NCBI GenBank assembly: GCA_903934875.1
Contig: CAIZPP010000232.1
Location: 1 to 58,677, forward strand
DNA: 58,677 nucleotides
DNA from: an uncultured Methylococcaceae bacterium
GTDB lineage: Bacteria; Pseudomonadota; Gammaproteobacteria; Methylococcales; Methylococcaceae
Reading direction: 5' to 3'
Shown piece by piece: positions 17,980 to 58,555 of this stretch (position 1 is its first letter; the number at the start of each line of letters is the position of its first letter). The notes beneath the pieces are model-generated. The model saw only the letters and a list, made by a program, of their open reading frames with translations, ran no database searches and was not told the origin of the DNA. The translations under genes and the position numbers were made by a program.

Positions 17980-20865
17980 ATGACCGATGCAAGCGACTTG
18001 AAGCGATTCCAGATTTTCCTTGCCTCTCCGGGCGATGTGTCGCTGGAACGCAAGCTGGCCCGCGAGGCCATTGAGCACATTAATGGCGAACGGCGATTCC
18101 GTGGGCGTATCGTGTGTGAAAGCGTCGCCTGGGACCGTGCGGGGGTGGCGCTGGAAGCCGGGATGACACCGCAACAAGCCATTGCACTGGGGCTTCCCAA
18201 ACCCGAGGATTGCGATCTGGTGGTGGTCATTCTGTGGTCGCGCATCGGTACGCCCCTGCCCGCCGATTTTGCATTAAAAACCGACGGTACGCCCTATCTG
18301 TCCGGCACCGAATGGGAGTACCTGAATGCGGTCCAAGGGTTTAGGGCCAAACAAAAATCCGGCAATATTTGGGTGTTCCAGCGCACGGAAATCCCCAAAC
18401 ACGCCATTGATGACCCGGATATCTGCAAGATTCTTGAACAGTGGGACAGGCTGAAGACGTTCTTGGCAAGCTTCACCAATGCTGACAACTCGCTGAACGG
18501 GGGGCTTAATCGCTACAAAACGCCGGATGACTTCAGCCAACAGTTTGAGCGCTTTCTGCGCGACCGCTTGGACAAGTTGCTGGAGACCTTGCCCCCGCCC
18601 GACCTTTCAGCCTTTACACGGGCATCCAACATAAAACCACTGTGGACCGAATCGCCCTACCCCGGCTTGGGTGCGTACACCCCGGAACAAGCCCCGATTT
18701 ATTTTGGCCGAGGGCGCGAGGCCGATCAATTGCTGAAACCATTTGCCGATTCTTCCGTTCGTTTTGTCGCCGTCGTAGGCGTGTCCGGTTCCGGCAAGTC
18801 ATCGCTGGTCATGGCGGGGCTGTTGCCGCGCTTGCGCTCTAGTATGATAGGTAATGCGCCTTGGATAGACCTGATCATCAAACCCGGCGAACGAGGGGAC
18901 AATCCCTTTTTGGCCTTGGCCTTTGTGCTGAAATCACAATTGAAACTGACCGGCCAAACGGAAGCCGAACTGGCCCGCGCACTGCAAGCGGATTGGCAGC
19001 TTGCGCAACGCCATGTGGACACGCTGCTGGCCAACCAACCGCAGGCCCAAGAGTTGTTGCTCGTCATTGACCAGTTTGAAGAATTGTTCACCCAATGCAA
19101 GCCCAGTGAAACCGGGGACTTTATCCAGTTGTTGGAGCATCTGGTGTCACTGCCGCGAGTGCGGGCGGTGGCGACCTTGCGCGCCGATTTTTATGCCACC
19201 GCGATTGCCGAACCCGTCTTGGCCAATTTGCTGCGCCAAAATCACGGCACCTTCCCGCTGGACTTGCCGGGGACCGGCGCGATTCATCAAATGATCACCC
19301 GGCCTGCCGAGGCGGGCGGGGTGGAGTTGCAAGACGGTTTAGCCGCCAAGCTGCTGGATGAAGCTGGCCGGGGACCGGGTGCGATGGCCTTGATCGCCTA
19401 CACGCTGAACCAATTATACGAGCGGGAACAGTCACATGTTCTGAGCATAGCCGCTTATGAACGGCTGGGCGGCGTGACCGGGGCCATCCAACAACGTGCC
19501 GACGAAGCCTTGGCCGGTTTGGAAAAAAGCCTAGACCTAAACACAGGCTTGCCCAAGCTGTTCGCGCATTTGGTCGAAGTAAACGAGCAGGAGGTCGCCA
19601 CCCGTCGCCGTGCATTACAACAAGACCTGAACGGGGATGCGGGCAAGCTGGCCGATGCCTTGATTAAAGCGCGGTTGTTGGTTTCCGGTAAGGGGGTAAA
19701 TGACCAGCCGACGCTGGAAGTGTCGCATGAAACGGTGTTGAGCGGCTGGGACCGCTTGCGGTTGTGGATTTTAGAGGATGCCAAGGTGTTGCGTTTGCGC
19801 CGGGATTTAGAATTGGTCGCCAGTGAATGGAACTCAGCCGACCGACCGGGTGCAGGCTTGCGCACGGGAAACCTACTCAAAGGCTATTTGAAAGCCGCCG
19901 AACCGCGCTCGGCAACCGCGCAGGCGTATTTGGCCGCCTGCAACAACAAGAACCGGTGGATACACATTGGCTGGTCCGTTGCGGGCGTGTGCGTGCTTCT
20001 AGGCCTGGGGCTTTTTTTACATGTCAACCGCTCCTCCTATCCGCCCGCCTTGGCCAGCAAGGCGCTATTGGTTCAATACCATCTTTGGCCCTTAACCGAA
20101 CCAGACATGGTCAGGATTCCAGTGGGTGATTTCCAAATGGGCGATCTTAACGGGGATAAAGATGAGAAGCTCACACACACCGTCCGGTTTGCCAAAGCCT
20201 ACGCGATGGGCCGCTATGAAGTCAGCTTTGACGAGTACGATCTGTTTGCCGCCGCCACCGGACGGGAACGGCCGAATGATCAAGGCTGGGGGCGAGGTAA
20301 TCGACCCGTCATCAATATCAGTTGGGTTGACGCAGTGGCCTACACTGCGTGGCTATCTGAACGCACCGGCAAGCAATATCGGTTGCCATCCGAGGCGGAA
20401 TGGGAATATGCCACCCGCGCTGGCACGACCACGCCACGGTTTTGGGCCGAAAATCCAACAGGCGAACCAGATGCGGCCTGCACCTATGCCAATGTATTCG
20501 ACCAGAGAAACGAGTCTGAGATCAGGGACAATTATACTGGCACCAAATGGAAATCGTTTAAATGCTCGGATGATTTCCCGTTCACGGCCCCAGTGGATCA
20601 ATTCCAAGCCAATGCCTGGGGTTTGTACAATACCTTGGGCAATGTTTGGGAATGGGTGCAGGATTGCTATCATGAGACCTATCAGGGTGCGCCTGACAAT
20701 GGCAGTGCATACGATGGTAGCACGAAATGTGCTTCAGACAAGCGGGTGATCCGAGGCGGTTCTTGGTACGGCAGACAATTGAGGTTGCGTTCGGCCTCGC
20801 GCGGCTGGAGCAACCCCTACTTCAGGAAGGACCTCCTTGGCTTCCGCCTTGCCCAGGACTTATAG
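17980..20865 (+). CDS. DUF4062-STAND NTPase-TM-FGE domain protein, probable conflict/immune sensor
   Basis: 961 aa in four parts. Residues 1-~215: DUF4062, a TIR-like fold (FQIFLASPGDVSLER; Glu111 in SGTEWEY). Residues ~225-640: a STAND-type NTPase opening YPGLGAYTPEQAPIYFGR, with Walker A GVSGSGKSS (267-275) and Walker B LLLVID (359-364) followed by QFEE. Residues ~661-682: one membrane helix. Residues ~708-961: formylglycine-generating-enzyme/C-type-lectin-like domain (MVRIPVGDFQMGD, YRLPSEAEWEYATRAG, GNVWEWVQDC). The two catalytic cysteines of true FGEs are missing near RGGSW, so this end probably binds ligand rather than acting as an enzyme. Its last ~37 residues have the form of a DGR variable region. 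Related architectures are known in prokaryotic immune or programmed-death systems; the role here is inferred. Confidence 0.88.
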   Translation: MTDASDLKRFQIFLASPGDVSLERKLAREAIEHINGERRFRGRIVCESVAWDRAGVALEAGMTPQQAIALGLPKPEDCDLVVVILWSRIGTPLPADFALKTDGTPYLSGTEWEYLNAVQGFRAKQKSGNIWVFQRTEIPKHAIDDPDICKILEQWDRLKTFLASFTNADNSLNGGLNRYKTPDDFSQQFERFLRDRLDKLLETLPPPDLSAFTRASNIKPLWTESPYPGLGAYTPEQAPIYFGRGREADQLLKPFADSSVRFVAVVGVSGSGKSSLVMAGLLPRLRSSMIGNAPWIDLIIKPGERGDNPFLALAFVLKSQLKLTGQTEAELARALQADWQLAQRHVDTLLANQPQAQELLLVIDQFEELFTQCKPSETGDFIQLLEHLVSLPRVRAVATLRADFYATAIAEPVLANLLRQNHGTFPLDLPGTGAIHQMITRPAEAGGVELQDGLAAKLLDEAGRGPGAMALIAYTLNQLYEREQSHVLSIAAYERLGGVTGAIQQRADEALAGLEKSLDLNTGLPKLFAHLVEVNEQEVATRRRALQQDLNGDAGKLADALIKARLLVSGKGVNDQPTLEVSHETVLSGWDRLRLWILEDAKVLRLRRDLELVASEWNSADRPGAGLRTGNLLKGYLKAAEPRSATAQAYLAACNNKNRWIHIGWSVAGVCVLLGLGLFLHVNRSSYPPALASKALLVQYHLWPLTEPDMVRIPVGDFQMGDLNGDKDEKLTHTVRFAKAYAMGRYEVSFDEYDLFAAATGRERPNDQGWGRGNRPVINISWVDAVAYTAWLSERTGKQYRLPSEAEWEYATRAGTTTPRFWAENPTGEPDAACTYANVFDQRNESEIRDNYTGTKWKSFKCSDDFPFTAPVDQFQANAWGLYNTLGNVWEWVQDCYHETYQGAPDNGSAYDGSTKCASDKRVIRGGSWYGRQLRLRSASRGWSNPYFRKDLLGFRLAQDL

Positions 20866-21567: not shown

Positions 21568-21728
21568 TTCCCCATATCGGCAGTTTTCTTCACCATTCAG
21601 TGAATTTACATTGCAAAAAACAGATGGTTACTCCATATTGGAGCATCGGCAAGTAAATCGGCAATAATCATCACTTGATGTATCATAATGCAAGCACTGG
21701 CAATGTCTTACCATTATTTAGGATCGGC

Positions 21729-22925
21729 ATGACCTTACCCGCAGAAACACCGTCGATAATAGAACCCTGTTTGCTTGAAACGACTCCTGTCGAACTTAAC
21801 GATCTGATCGCCAACTTGGCAACGGCGACAGAGCGGCTAGGTGGCAAGCTGCACCCGCACACGGCATCTAAGCTCGCCGATCTGGTCCGAATCATGAACT
21901 GCTATTACTCCAATCTGATTGAGGGACACCACACCACGCCCCGCGACATTGAACGTGCGCTAAAGGACGACTTGGACGGAGAGGAAACCCGCCGCAATTT
22001 GCAAATCGAAGCGCGGGCGCACATCCGAGTGCAGCGAATGGTTGACCGGCTGCATGGCGCAGGGGAATTACCCGAGCCAGCTTCGCTGGATTTCATCTGT
22101 TGGCTGCACCGTGAGTTCTACGTCGATGTGCCGGATGCCATGCTTTTGGTCCAAGGGGGAGGGCGGTGTATGCGGATGGAGCCTGGCGCTTTACGAAGCT
22201 TGCCAGAGCATAACGTCGAAGTGGGGCGGCATATTCCGCCGGACAGCGAGGGCGTAGACATGTTCATGCGTTACTTTGAACGGCGCTATCGTTTGGCTCC
22301 ACTGGGTAAGGGTGGACGCATCATCGCCATGGCCGCAGCCCATCACCGGATAAATTACATTCATCCCTTCCTTGACGGCAACGGACGCGTCAGCCGTCTG
22401 ATGAGCCATGCGATGGGCTTTTACGCCGGGATAGGCGCATCCGGTTTGTGGTCGGTGTCGCGGGGGCTTGCGCGGGGGTTGCCAAGTAGCCCATCATACA
22501 AGCAGATGATGGATTATGCCGACAGCCGCCGGCTAAGCGACTTGGATGGGCGTGGCAATCTCTCCCAAAAAGCACTGACCGAGTTTATCCTCTGGTTCTT
22601 GGGCGTTTGCCTCGACCAAGTGGAGTTCATGGCCGATTTATTTACATTGGACAATCTCGCAGCCCGCCTCAAGCTCTATGTGGAAAGCAGGACGATGAAA
22701 CCGGTAGCCTTTTTTATCTTGGAAAAGGTGTTGCTATTGGGTGAGTTGCCGCGTGGCGAGGCGGAGCGGATCACCGGGCTGAAGGAGCGGACGGCGCGGC
22801 AGGTGCTCACCAGCTTGGTGGAGGATGGTATTTTGGATTCGACAACACCTAAAGGGCCGGTCTCATTGCGCTTCCCCAGCCATGCCGTGGAAATATTGTT
22901 TCCGCGTTTGTTTTCAGGCAACTGA
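21729..22925 (+). CDS. fic: Fic family protein (class II) with C-terminal winged helix
   Basis: Fic enzymes usually transfer AMP from ATP to a hydroxyl of a target protein. The active-site motif [12 protein letters not shown] starts at residue 212, with all key residues present. An N-terminal inhibitory helix motif SNLIEG (Ser61, Glu65, Gly66) matches the [S/T]xxxE[G/N] of self-inhibited class II Fics, so the enzyme should be held off until the Glu is displaced. The C-terminal ~80 residues look like a winged-helix domain ([20 protein letters not shown]). ATG 21729 was chosen for its AGGA SD; TTG 21675 or ATG 21678 would add 17-18 residues. The target is unknown. Confidence 0.9.
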
Positions 22926-32297: not shown

Positions 32298-32426
32298 TAC
32301 AGCGTTTTTAATATCGAATAGTTACTTGTTAAGTTATATTATTTTGCAAAGCAATTGGCACACTGAATGGTTTGATTGGGTGTCCTTCTAGCTATCAAGT
32401 AACTCTTTGATGTTGAAAACGCTGTA
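32298..32426. mobile_element. Family 1 MITE-like repeat, complete copy overlapping the end of the OYE gene
   Basis: Starts TACAGCGTTTTTAATATCGA and ends TTGAAAACGCTGTA, both bounded by TA. The last 39 bases (32388-32426) encode the C-terminus (AYSVFNIKELLDS) and stop of the minus-strand old yellow enzyme gene. The left arm has the ATTTTGCAAAGCAATTGGCA core seen in other copies. Confidence 0.85.
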
Positions 32427-35595: not shown

Positions 35596-37335
35596 ATGGC
35601 CGCATTGCTGAACAATCAGGAACAAGCCTTGCTGCGTGGCTGGATGAATCTGCTGGGTTGGCCTCTGCTTGGACAATTGTATTTGGACGGTGCAGATATT
35701 GCCACCACCCGGCAAACCGTGCTCGCGTTGCGCCAGCGCTTGGCTTTGAAAGCCCGTCATTTAGGTTTGCCCGAACTGGCAAACTTTTGGCTAAAGGAAA
35801 GGCTGGATGGCGAAACTTGGATTAAACAAGCCGATGCGGGCTTGAGAACCCTGCTGGAAACCCCCGATCCGTTGCCCGCGCTGAAAGATGCCGTTAGCCG
35901 ATGGCTTCCCGACAAAATCGCCGACAAGCTCCATGCACAGGGCATGGAAACGCTGCAAGCGGTGGTTGCATTTCGGGAGCAGCATGGAAAATTATGCTGG
36001 CAGACCTTGCCGCATTTCGGCACACACTCCGCGCAAACGGTCGAGCGTTTCCTGAAAACCCATGCGGCCACCTTGGGATTGGCCAGCAATGCCTTGGCAA
36101 TCCGTCCGCCGGGCTTGGCCGGGGCAGGCAAGGCTAGCCATCCGGTCATGGAAAACCTGTTTGACTCACAAGCCGGATTGAGCGGGGCCGACGGCAGCAA
36201 CCGCGCACCGCATGACCGCTGCAAGCTACCCGTGGGCAACGACTTTGAAGCCATCCATGCTTGGTTGGACCTGCGCGACCACGACAGCCACACCTACCGG
36301 AACTATCGGAAAGAATCCGAGCGCTTTCTGCTCTGGGCGATCACCGAACGCGGCAAAGCGCTGTCCTCCCTGGATACTTTGGACTGTAAAGCCTACCGGG
36401 ATTTCCTCTTCGCCCCGGCGGAGGCGTGGCTGAACCCCGAGTTCAAGCCGCGCTGGAGTCCGTCTTGGCGGCCTTTCAAAGGCCCGTTGCAACAGCGGAC
36501 GGTCAAGCATGCTGAAATCATCCTGTCCTCGCTGTGCGAATGGCTGGTCAAACAACGCTACCTCGACAGCAACCCGTTTGACGGACTGCCGCCTCTGCCT
36601 TCCCAAGAATTGCATAGCCTGCAAGTAGAACATGCCTTGGACGATAGCCAATGGCAATGGCTGCTGGATTATTGCGCACAATGCGAAGCCGCACCGCCCG
36701 AGGGTGGTGACAAGCGCCACTATCGACGACTCTGGATTGCCATCCAGTTAGCCTACTGTACCGGGCTGCGCATAGCGGAATTGGCAAATGCCCGCTTTGG
36801 CGACATCACCCACAAAAGCCGTAACGGCGGACAATACTGGCTGAGGGTGCTGGGCAAGGGCAGCAAACAGCGTGAAGTGCCGCTGCCCCCTGAATTGGTA
36901 GAAGAACTAAAGCGCTATGCCCTCGAACGCGGTGCCGTGTGGGGTGTGCCGGATTCGCCGGAACCCATCATAGGCAAATTCCGCAAAACTGCGCTGCTTG
37001 AAACAGCCGATATTGACTTGGTGGAAACGCCCTTCACGACCTCAGGGCTGCACCGGGTGCTAAAAACATTTTTCAACGAAGCCGCTGCTGCGATGGAACG
37101 GTCCGCAAACGAAGAAGACAAACGCAACGTCGAAGCCTTGACCAAGATGACCACGCACTGGCTGCGGCATACCCATGCCTCCCATGCCCTAGGCCGCGGT
37201 GCCGCCTTGATTTCAGTTAAGGAAAACTTAGGCCATTCCAGCTTGTCCACTACCTCGCTGTACCTACACGGTGACAAAGACCAGCGTTACACGGAAATGG
37301 GCAAGCTGTTTCGGAAGAAGACAGGGACGGGCTAG
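35596..37335 (+). CDS. Tyrosine recombinase with DUF3701-like N-terminal domain
   Basis: 579-aa site-specific recombinase. The C-terminal catalytic domain has Arg392 (TGLRIAELANARFGD), the HxxR box His521/Arg524 (HWLRHTHASHAL), GHSS, and the nucleophile Tyr556 (STTSLYLHGD), a full set. The ~190-residue N-terminal extension resembles the DUF3701 region of a group of chromosomal integrases of unknown purpose, followed by a SAM-like core-binding domain. No att sites, phage genes or gene cassettes are seen beside it, so it does not mark an obvious prophage. Confidence 0.88.
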   Translation: MAALLNNQEQALLRGWMNLLGWPLLGQLYLDGADIATTRQTVLALRQRLALKARHLGLPELANFWLKERLDGETWIKQADAGLRTLLETPDPLPALKDAVSRWLPDKIADKLHAQGMETLQAVVAFREQHGKLCWQTLPHFGTHSAQTVERFLKTHAATLGLASNALAIRPPGLAGAGKASHPVMENLFDSQAGLSGADGSNRAPHDRCKLPVGNDFEAIHAWLDLRDHDSHTYRNYRKESERFLLWAITERGKALSSLDTLDCKAYRDFLFAPAEAWLNPEFKPRWSPSWRPFKGPLQQRTVKHAEIILSSLCEWLVKQRYLDSNPFDGLPPLPSQELHSLQVEHALDDSQWQWLLDYCAQCEAAPPEGGDKRHYRRLWIAIQLAYCTGLRIAELANARFGDITHKSRNGGQYWLRVLGKGSKQREVPLPPELVEELKRYALERGAVWGVPDSPEPIIGKFRKTALLETADIDLVETPFTTSGLHRVLKTFFNEAAAAMERSANEEDKRNVEALTKMTTHWLRHTHASHALGRGAALISVKENLGHSSLSTTSLYLHGDKDQRYTEMGKLFRKKTGTG

Positions 37336-37359: not shown

Positions 37360-38784
37360 TTACTCATCCACCTCAATGATGCGGAAATATTCGCCCTCAT
37401 GCGCCACTGCCGCAGTAGTAATGCGGCCATCCGGCCCCACACTCAGGTAACGGCCTCGATGGTTCTGGAAGGCGAACCGCTTATCGCCCAGTTCGATAAA
37501 CCGGAACCGCTCCGTTTCTCCAATTTGGAGTCCGGTCGCAGCCACGCCAACACCGTCTGCGGTAGTGCTTAAAAACTTCCCATGCAGGCTTTTCAGTGCG
37601 AGTCGTTCCTCACCCGCATCATGCAATTCGAACTCGTCAAAACTCTGGTCTTTGCGGGCGGTCAAGATGCCGGACGAGTCCACGGCGACTCCGAAATCAT
37701 CTTTGGCAATGAGTCCAATCCGTTTAGGCCGGTCATTGCCCGGCTCGTCGAAGAACTCCACCTCGCCGTCGTCAAGGTCATAGCGTGCCCCTACAACGAG
37801 GATATGCCTAAGCCACAATTCTAGAGTGAGTTTCTCCTGGCCCAAGTTCTCCAAGGCATCGCGGATGACCGCTGTTTGCCTGCGCACATTGACCCGCACC
37901 GCGTCATCAAGTACCGCAGCATCCACTTGCGGGAGTCCGGCAAGAACCCCGCACCGATAAACCGGCTCCACCAAAGGGACGATGGCGCTGACGAGTTGGC
38001 CCAAGGGGCCGGAAAAACTGTCCTTCTTAGCAGCCACCGAAATCGCGGCTTTGATGGCACCACAGCGCTCATGGCCGAGCACTACAACTAGCCGTGTTCC
38101 CAAATGCTCAATGGCATACTGGATGCTGCCTAGAATGAAGGTATCGGCCACATTGCCCGCGACGCGGAGTACGAACAGGTCGCCTATGTCTTGGTCGAAA
38201 ATGATCTCGGGCGGCACCCGCGAATCGGCGCAAGCGAGGACGATGGCGAACGGTTTCTGGTCCTTCGCGTTGGCCTTGACTTGTTCATGGACCAGTTGGG
38301 GGTTGACCCTGGACTTTCCGGTCAGATAGCGTTGATAGCCGTCTTTGAGTTCTTGCAAGGCACGATGGGCATCCACGCCAGCTTCAGTCTGCTCATGCAC
38401 CTGCGAGAATCCAAACATCTTCAGATGGGGCTGGTATTGTTTGAAATCAATGCGCAACAGGTTTTCACCCTCTTTGAACTCATAGGGCCCGTAGACGAAC
38501 CATTGCAGTGTATCGCTATGCCAACTTCCGGTTGTTTCGCCGAGAATCGGGGCGGCTTGGGCAAGCCCATTGATAGACAGGATGCAGGGCCTTGAATCGG
38601 CAGCGCTCATCTGTACATGCAGGTGGTATTTACCCGCACTAGGGAATTTGATCCGCCACTCGATATAGCCGGTGGGTCCGCTGGTCACGGTAAGGTTCGA
38701 CCAACTCGGTGCTTCCCTAATGCTATTCGGGCCGGATGCGCTGAAGTCTTTTGTTAGGATGGAAAATAAGATGTCACTACTCAT
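37360..38784 (-). CDS. Three-module beta-carbonic anhydrase: CBM-like, carbonic anhydrase, fascin-like
   Basis: 474 aa. Residues 1-~133 look like a carbohydrate-binding-module beta-sandwich (CBM6/35-like: GYIEWRIKFPSAGKYHLHV, SWHSDTLQW, GENLLRIDF). Residues ~134-345 are a beta-class carbonic anhydrase with zinc ligands Cys185, His238 and Cys241 and the Asp187-Arg189 dyad (ACADSRVPPE, GHERCGA). Residues ~355-474 form a fascin-like beta-trefoil (LALKSLHGKFLST, FAFQNHRGRYLSV). The active site appears intact. Typical beta carbonic anhydrases are ~200-230 aa and lack these flanking modules. No signal peptide is seen, but the start codon abuts a family 1 repeat, so an original N-terminus may have been lost. 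Location and ligands are unknown. Confidence 0.9.
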   Translation of the reverse strand: MSSDILFSILTKDFSASGPNSIREAPSWSNLTVTSGPTGYIEWRIKFPSAGKYHLHVQMSAADSRPCILSINGLAQAAPILGETTGSWHSDTLQWFVYGPYEFKEGENLLRIDFKQYQPHLKMFGFSQVHEQTEAGVDAHRALQELKDGYQRYLTGKSRVNPQLVHEQVKANAKDQKPFAIVLACADSRVPPEIIFDQDIGDLFVLRVAGNVADTFILGSIQYAIEHLGTRLVVVLGHERCGAIKAAISVAAKKDSFSGPLGQLVSAIVPLVEPVYRCGVLAGLPQVDAAVLDDAVRVNVRRQTAVIRDALENLGQEKLTLELWLRHILVVGARYDLDDGEVEFFDEPGNDRPKRIGLIAKDDFGVAVDSSGILTARKDQSFDEFELHDAGEERLALKSLHGKFLSTTADGVGVAATGLQIGETERFRFIELGDKRFAFQNHRGRYLSVGPDGRITTAAVAHEGEYFRIIEVDE

Positions 38785-39302
38785 ACAGCGTTTTTAATAT
38801 CGAAGGGTTAATTGTAGAATTCTATCATTTTGCAAAGCAATGCACACACAGGATGGTTTGATTGAGTGTCCTTTATTATTTTTCTTTGTTAAGAACTGAT
38901 GTTACGCAACCGTGTAGGCTGTAGCCCGGATGTTGTGGAGTGCGGCGACTCGTCGCCGCTGGACACAAAAGGCGGCGACGGCAAGGTCGGAATAAGGTCG
39001 TGCAGCGACCGTTTCCGGCATTTCGCTGTCCCTTTGCCGGAAACGCCCGCTAAAGCGGGTTTATTCCGGCCTACTTTCTACCCCCCCGTGCTGTTATCGG
39101 CAAAGGATTGCCGACTTACGGCGATTCGTTTTGGAGTGTCAAGGCTTGCCTTGACAGGCAAAGCGAGCTTTGCCACTCCATGCGTAACATCAGTTAACAA
39201 AGAGAAATAATAAAGGACACCCAATCAAACCATCAATTGTGCCAATTGCTTTGAAAAATAATATAACTTAACAAGTCACTATCCGATGTTGAAAACGCTG
39301 TA
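38784..39302. mobile_element. Long family 1 palindrome interrupted by a family 2 MITE
   Basis: The left arm (38784-38893) and right arm (39196-39302) are inverted copies: TACAGCGTTTTTAATATCGA against GATGTTGAAAACGCTGTA, and GGTTTGATTGAGTGTCCTTT against AAAGGACACCCAATCAAACC. The left end shares its T with the carbonic anhydrase start codon, and the right end touches the rsmD stop codon, so the whole gap between the two genes is repeat DNA. Confidence 0.9.
38894..39195. mobile_element. Family 2 MITE, large copy (302 bp) inserted in a family 1 palindrome
   Basis: Perfect inverted ends AACTGATGTTACGCA and TGCGTAACATCAGTT. The left part matches the small copy at 48396-48503 (ACCGTGTAGGCTGTAGCCCG, GTTGTGGAGTGCGGCGAC) and the right part matches the copy at 30536-30666. 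It carries no transposase. Confidence 0.88.
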
Positions 39303-39857
39303 TTAGGGTATCCGCTTATAAAGATGGTAGCCCACCCCGCCGGCGTGTTTGCTGCGGTGGTTTTGCCAAGTGTCCGGCATAGACTCCAGCACTTTCTCTT
39401 TTTCGGCTTCAATGTAGATGCGGGCGCGAGGCGTGAGCCAGCCGTTTTCCTCCAACCAACGGCAGCAAGGCTCGACTAATCCTTGATGGAAGGGAGGGTC
39501 TAGCAACACCACATCGAAGCGCTCGGTAGGCCCAGCCAGAAAGCGGGCAACATCCATTTGCACGATTTCCACCATCCGCGCATCCAACAGGCCACAGTTT
39601 TGTTTCAATGCGATGCAAGCCTCGGCGTTACGCTCCACTTGCACCACCCGTTTCGCCCCACGGGAGGCGGCTTCAAAGCCCAACACACCGCTGCCGGCAT
39701 AAAGATTCAAGCAAACCAAGCCGTCAAGTTCTTGGCCCAGCCAATTGAACAGGGTTTCCCTTACCCTGTCCGGGGTCGGGCGTAGCTCCGACACATCAGG
39801 GAAACGAATTTTCCGGCTGCGCCAAGTTCCACCAATGATGCGAACCTCATTTTTCAT
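39303..39857 (-). CDS. rsmD: 16S rRNA (guanine966-N2)-methyltransferase
   Basis: 184-aa SAM-dependent enzyme that methylates G966 of 16S rRNA. Motifs: GGTWRSRKI and LRPTPDRVRETLFNWLG near the N-terminus, NLYAGSGVLGFEAASRGA (SAM loop) and the catalytic LLDPPFH. Its start overlaps the end of the M16 gene by 11 bases. The 3' end abuts a family 1 repeat without changing the reading frame. Confidence 0.96.
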   Translation of the reverse strand: MKNEVRIIGGTWRSRKIRFPDVSELRPTPDRVRETLFNWLGQELDGLVCLNLYAGSGVLGFEAASRGAKRVVQVERNAEACIALKQNCGLLDARMVEIVQMDVARFLAGPTERFDVVLLDPPFHQGLVEPCCRWLEENGWLTPRARIYIEAEKEKVLESMPDTWQNHRSKHAGGVGYHLYKRIP

Positions 39858-58433: not shown

Positions 58434-58555
58434 TACAGCGTTTTTAATATCGAAGAGGTACTTGTTAGGCTATATAATTTTGCAAAGCACAGACACACAG
58501 GATTGTTTGATTGAGTGTCCTTTATGATTTTTCTTTGTTAAGAAAAAACACTGTA
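58434..58555. mobile_element. Family 1 MITE-like repeat, complete copy
   Basis: Starts TACAGCGTTTTTAATATCGA and ends AAAAAACACTGTA, 122 bp, TA at both ends. The interior matches the left arm at 38784-38893 (GGTTTGATTGAGTGTCCTTT in the form TTGTTTGATTGAGTGTCCTT). Confidence 0.85.

Follow-up and report, generated by a model that had tools for sequence, protein, structure and literature searches.

Beta-carbonic anhydrases work as dimers or higher oligomers, and it is signal peptides, transporters or the shells of carboxysomes that give carbonic anhydrases their place. In a study of Methylococcus capsulatus (PMC11423575), a Sec signal is predicted only in the alpha-carbonic anhydrase among the five carbonic anhydrases of this organism, and mutants suggest that these enzymes have non-redundant roles. 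As for binding modules, CBM92 is one of the bacterial fascin-like domains and uses Trp-Glu clefts to bind beta-glucans (PMC11039641).

The DNA analysed here (the window) is a stretch of 58,677 nucleotides from an uncultured Methylococcaceae bacterium, which, judging by genes nearby, may be a methanotroph. It had been predicted to encode, in a single 474-aa frame between positions 37360 and 38784, a beta-carbonic anhydrase flanked by a carbohydrate-binding-like module and a fascin-like trefoil. The single frame and the three-part layout were borne out, but on the minus strand: the plus-strand reading of this interval is interrupted by stops. The positions of the domains, of the neighbouring features and of related sequences are collected in Table 1.

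Table 1. Features of the window and of related loci in the same genome. Positions are those of the window unless a locus is named.
Feature	Position	Strand	Basis or remark
474-aa protein: CBM35-like module + beta-carbonic anhydrase + fascin-like trefoil	37363..38784	-	stop codon 37360-37362
Probable CBM35-like module, residues 1-135	38380..38784	-	phmmer versus PDB; by sequence
Beta-carbonic anhydrase, residues 137-345	37750..38376	-	Pro_CA, PDB matches, active-site residues
Fascin-like trefoil, residues 352-474	37363..37731	-	PF06268, PDB fascin; by sequence
Tyrosine recombinase/integrase	35596..37335	+	convergent neighbour; PF00589 E 1.7e-18, PF12482
Inverted-repeat element, 523 bp	38784..39306	.	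between carbonic anhydrase start codon and rsmD stop
rsmD-like methyltransferase gene	39303..39857	-	neighbour of carbonic anhydrase gene
Further copies of the 113-nt repeat	32298-32387, 58434-58544, 6-117; L030 8526-8637
Paralogue L020	L030 10070-11554		same genome
Three further ORFs with the L020 front module	L083:4305-5429, L084:4242-5471, L085:5091-5999		same genome

The enzyme core and its two flanking modules

The assignment of the core to the beta-carbonic anhydrases is firm. Pro_CA (PF00484) matches residues 180-342 with an E-value of 2.2e-34 (119.4 bits, curated cut-off 25.7), and carbonic anhydrases of the PDB match residues 141-350 (E 7.5e-31). The active site had been predicted to be intact, and Cys185, Asp187, Arg189, His238 and Cys241 are all present at exactly the positions claimed; we take Cys185, His238 and Cys241 to be the zinc ligands and Asp187/Arg189 to be the dyad. 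All five are invariant or nearly so across a 14-row alignment (A1). The catalytic domain and the active-site residues are those of described beta-carbonic anhydrases (PF00484; PDB 1ym3/2a5v; NCBIfam PRK15219 group), from which the window protein differs by the two modules added around the enzyme; it stays under the PRK15219 cut-off (115 versus 221 bits). The C-terminal half of its carbonic anhydrase also contains extra residues, common to the paralogue described below and absent from the 13 other rows of A1.

Beta-carbonic anhydrases that form one part of a longer protein were met in two other arrangements. The transporter-beta-carbonic anhydrase fusion G043/L023 resembles the window protein in this respect; however, it is without binding modules and its other part is transporter-like (a 33-residue piece matches PF00916 under the cut-off, and we take the non-enzyme part to be SulP transporter-like). 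L068 (1366-2451, genome G755) likewise continues for about 120 residues (120-125) behind its enzyme, but is exported-looking, with a Tat-like start; as its tail, presumably NTF2-like, has no trefoil match by tblastn, it was rejected as a further fusion of carbonic anhydrase and trefoil. In three carbonic anhydrases of Myxococcota- or Myxococcales-labelled genomes (L012, L016 and L017), a long His-rich stretch is inserted within the enzyme domain.

By sequence comparison, the assignment of the C-terminal domain to the fascin-like trefoils is also firm. Fascin (PF06268) matches residues 374-458 (E 2.6e-7; 31.2 bits, curated cut-off 23.1), and PDB fascin matches the C-terminus with an E-value of 3.9e-9, or of 1.6e-7 with a two-row profile. 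FRG1 (PF06229), which we take to be trefoil-like as well, is also just above its cut-off (28.7 versus 27 bits). Within the domain, repeats 2 and 3 align with a score of 48, reached by none of 2000 shuffles; the similarity of the pairs 1-2 and 1-3 is not above that of shuffles. As in the bacterial fascin-like domains described in PMC11039641, CBM92 included, a trefoil is attached to an enzyme; here, in contrast, this partner is neither a glycoside hydrolase nor a lyase, and the trefoil (residues 352-474) contains no Trp. The Trp-Glu sugar clefts of CBM92 therefore cannot be there, and membership of this family was ruled out. For the same reason, binding by the trefoil may depend on other residues, or its partner may be a protein. 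The trefoil profile weakly matches two GH18 chains, 7zoi (E 0.011) and 7zoh (E 0.17), which are presumably CBM92 structures.

A carbohydrate-binding-like module at the N-terminus is probable. When residues 1-135 were compared with the PDB by phmmer, eight sequences were returned at E <= 5: seven chains of exo-beta-D-glucosaminidase (best E 1.4e-4) or of a GDSL lipolytic enzyme (E 2e-3), with E-values of 1.4e-4 to 2.3e-3, and a heme-binding protein (E 0.59). We take the glucosaminidase and GDSL chains to be carriers of CBM35 modules. The match covers residues 38-92 (about 53 residues) nearly in register and, because the alignment is almost without offset, the module seems complete. Its sequence match to the presumed CBM35 carriers lies in this stretch; its own partner is no carbohydrate-active enzyme. 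No Pfam family exceeds its cut-off for residues 1-135 (DHHA2 only, sub-threshold at E 0.1) and no Pfam carbohydrate-binding family matches them up to E 10. At E <= 0.001, the module was found at its own locus only among 369 class genomes (its own and 368 others), and it was absent from the viral contigs searched. A plasmid-encoded 'metal-dependent hydrolase' (27% identity, E 9e-3) was discarded as a relative: this match was taken as chance because the hydrolase resembles YdjM and the part of it that matched has no significant hits.

A paralogue with another front module

The same genome encodes a second carbonic anhydrase followed by a trefoil, L020, which is 54% identical to the window protein over both domains and has all five active-site residues. 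As this paralogue repeats the pair of enzyme and trefoil, the layout is not a product of chance. No relation is detectable between the N-terminal modules of the two proteins (best BLASTP E 0.19 over 9 residues). The new element is L020 itself, with the same enzyme and trefoil behind an exchanged front module. Between the two proteins, the carbonic anhydrase parts are 67% identical, with dN 0.26 and dS 1.05 (dN/dS about 0.25), and the trefoil parts 34% identical, with dN 0.61 and dS 1.74 (dN/dS about 0.35), dS being near saturation in this comparison. From dN relative to dS, both domains look constrained, and the divergence of the two copies purifying.

The two fusions account for all PF06268 hits above the cut-off in this genome, where a third hit scores far lower; in 14 control genomes no hit exceeds it. 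The L020 trefoil itself is borderline (21.9 or 23.6 bits in two runs, cut-off 23.1). In a tree of 34 carbonic anhydrases (the window protein and the carbonic anhydrase loci, 6 of the 39 loci, L012 and L014-L018, being excluded as cut or interrupted), the window protein and L020 are sisters with a support of 100/100, and the stem leading to them is long (1.13). Next to join both fusions is a group of eight carbonic anhydrases, at 86/66, which is not full support.

The front module of L020, about 134 aa long, occurs in five further copies in three ORFs of the same genome: a tandem pair each in ORFs of 374 aa (contig C56) and 302 aa (C1) and one copy, followed by a proline-rich linker and repeats, in a 409-aa ORF (C213). 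By eye, none of the four own-genome ORFs with this module, L020 included, has a signal peptide. These three further ORFs suggest that the genome has a broader repertoire of proteins that are leaderless and perhaps lectin-like. One of the three is flanked by hupH and a gene for a hydrogenase maturation protease, and another lies beside a FeMo-cofactor gene. Outside its own genome, the module was found in one of 368 other class genomes, weakly (E 3.9e-6), and it was absent from the plasmids searched. A relative in a class genome other than this one (L086:2612-3223) has an apparent signal peptide and a PEP-CTERM match under the cut-off (E 0.038), which suggests that the module also occurs in exported form.

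The module alone has no Pfam hit. The first PDB chain found by its seven-row profile is the PA-I galactophilic lectin (PA-IL), a lectin that is leaderless too, but this match is not significant (E 0.12), and the Pfam family PA-IL (PF07828) has no hit in the genome of L020 up to E 10; three of 14 control genomes have hits, none of them above the cut-off. Membership of the PA-IL family, a likeness seen by eye, was rejected on this non-significant profile hit and the negative Pfam result. The lectin-like character of the module is a lead, not a finding.

Distribution and genomic setting

We looked for the same domain order in other genomes; the samples of relatives, class, order and phylum overlap. 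With a profile of carbonic anhydrase and trefoil, one of 311 order genomes was positive at E 1e-40, and 39 of 398 phylum genomes matched at E 1e-35, one of them with the full layout; in both cases it was the genome of origin. In the 38 other phylum genomes, the match ends after the enzyme and extends no further than profile position 228 of 355. The trefoil search was positive in one of 369 class genomes, again the genome of origin, and among 61 relatives two matched at E 1e-30: this genome and G043, through the carbonic anhydrase part of its transporter-like fusion. A pattern search of 84,980 species genomes, which reaches close relatives only, gave 18 carbonic anhydrase loci, none matching past residue 371 or before residue 127 of the query; a trefoil search of seven of the genomes behind these loci, run without a positive control, gave no match. 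When the 39 carbonic anhydrase loci were compared by tblastn, the trefoil was found in L020 only and the N-terminal module in none. The trefoil was also absent from the viral contigs and plasmids searched: 725 plasmid records match the window protein, but no match spans 80% of the query, and those listed (30) fall in the carbonic anhydrase region.

Among the matches listed from open-access literature (titles and abstract openings), there was no precedent for such a fusion. The original prediction that no enzyme of this layout had been described agrees with these literature and genome searches, in which enzyme plus trefoil occurs only in this genome among the samples covered. The architecture is real and, within what could be searched, undescribed. 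As only one genome was found to have it, this layout may have arisen recently or matter little.

The rsmD-M16-M16 block is kept in five of six other genomes of the genus, rsmD not being found in the sixth; neither the carbonic anhydrase gene nor the integrase gene had a match beside this block in the five same-genus stretches (1.0, 1.8, 2.6, 9 and 10 kb). The inverted-repeat element has 113-nt arms that are 81% complementary, and its pieces recur across the genome, with at least 70 matches, its own place included; this is a lower bound, as 40 of 1043 first-look candidates were scored. Many copies of the arm end at, or up to 4 bases past, the first base of the carbonic anhydrase start codon. 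The ATG is therefore partly made by the repeat and, as the start codon lies on the repeat end, the true N-terminus is uncertain; a leader or the native promoter of the gene may have been lost. The GC3 of the gene (0.63) is not unusual, since eight other window genes span 0.58-0.70, and a recent foreign origin by composition was rejected. A carbohydrate phosphorylase gene is found about 10 kb from the window gene, and L020 lies about 1.5 kb after glgC-like and 4-alpha-glucanotransferase genes.

Possible placement of the enzyme

According to the original prediction, attachment to a polysaccharide, sheath or protein filament would place the enzyme at a surface. As written, surface placement is unsupported: hydropathy windows over residues 1-45 of the window protein reveal no hydrophobic core (best 15-residue mean 0.77), and no signal is visible at the start of L020. 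By eye, the N-termini of 15 of the 18 carbonic anhydrase relatives from the pattern search look Tat-, Sec- or membrane-like, whereas L009 and L011 lack such a start and one relative is cut; placement at a surface is weakened because neither fusion has a visible signal although these 15 relatives seem exported or membrane-bound. At least three of 19 phylum carbonic anhydrase loci (L058, L060 and L074) are also without a hydrophobic stretch. The accompanying idea of a lost signal may still be right: the start codon is on the repeat end, and sequence in front of it could have been removed here, but L020 looks leaderless with different upstream DNA and no repeat arm at its start. The simplest reading is that the window protein is leaderless.

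The reading that we prefer, whose chances we judge to be even, is that of a leaderless beta-carbonic anhydrase, preceded by a sugar-binding-like module and followed by a fascin-like trefoil, forming an oligomer that presents the binding modules multivalently. The enzyme would be made without an export signal and be catalytically working. Because beta-carbonic anhydrases are oligomeric, each assembly would display several front and rear modules, and their avidity would hold the enzyme on a polymer during CO2/HCO3- exchange. The front module is exchangeable, L020 having the same enzyme and trefoil behind an unrelated module used in other leaderless proteins. The likely purpose would be to keep carbonic anhydrase activity on a polymer made by the cell, either intracellularly or, following release or lysis, in the matrix. 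A tentative extension, possible rather than probable, is that such a leaderless oligomeric enzyme acts as a multivalent lectin-like anchor, one chassis of enzyme and trefoil taking interchangeable glycan-recognition heads for CO2/bicarbonate exchange on chosen polysaccharides. If true, exchangeable glycan-recognition modules on a carbonic anhydrase would be another way to place pH/CO2 chemistry on a polymer, and the two paralogues, which share a chassis but differ in their heads, would be a natural pair for asking whether the head decides the place.

Three other explanations were weighed against this leaderless, polymer-held oligomer. The enzyme might reach the outside, by non-classical release, by lysis or with a signal lost or missed at the repeat, and bind the sheath, capsule or exopolysaccharide there. 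The exported look of most pattern-search relatives, the usually extracellular nature of CBM35-like modules, the start codon on the end of an inserted repeat and the apparent signal of L086 all point this way; however, neither fusion has a visible signal, L020 starts without a repeat arm, the own-genome ORFs with its module look signal-less, and leaderless carbonic anhydrases exist among the relatives. We regard a surface or matrix enzyme as unlikely. An enzyme that stays in the cytosol and is tethered there to glycogen or some other polymer would agree with the lack of a visible signal peptide and with the glgC-like, 4-alpha-glucanotransferase and phosphorylase genes near the two fusions. This is evidence from neighbourhood only, for which it was set aside as the main reading, and gene location says little because two other ORFs with the L020 module sit by hydrogenase and FeMo-cofactor genes; moreover, we know of no CBM35 or LecA-like fold that binds glycogen. 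A tether to such a polymer appears quite improbable.

It is also conceivable, but improbable, that this repeat-rich genome joined the modules to a carbonic anhydrase by accident and that they are carried passively, without a role. The repeat at the 5' end, the adjoining integrase gene, the restriction of the layout to one genome and the absence of the gene beside rsmD in the five same-genus stretches (three of them only 1.0 to 2.6 kb) are consistent with such an accident. Against it, two paralogues keep enzyme and trefoil at the identities and dN/dS values given above, with dS near saturation, and the front module of L020 is used repeatedly in the genome.

Some minor features of the region were also recorded. 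In three cases, the 113-nt repeat ends at or next to a stop codon: that of rsmD, that of an ORF ending at position 32388 and that of the 4-alpha-glucanotransferase gene on L030. Elsewhere, the window encodes a 961-aa protein with an nSTAND1 NTPase and an FGE-sulfatase-like domain (17980-20865) and a Fic-domain protein of 416 aa (21675-22925).
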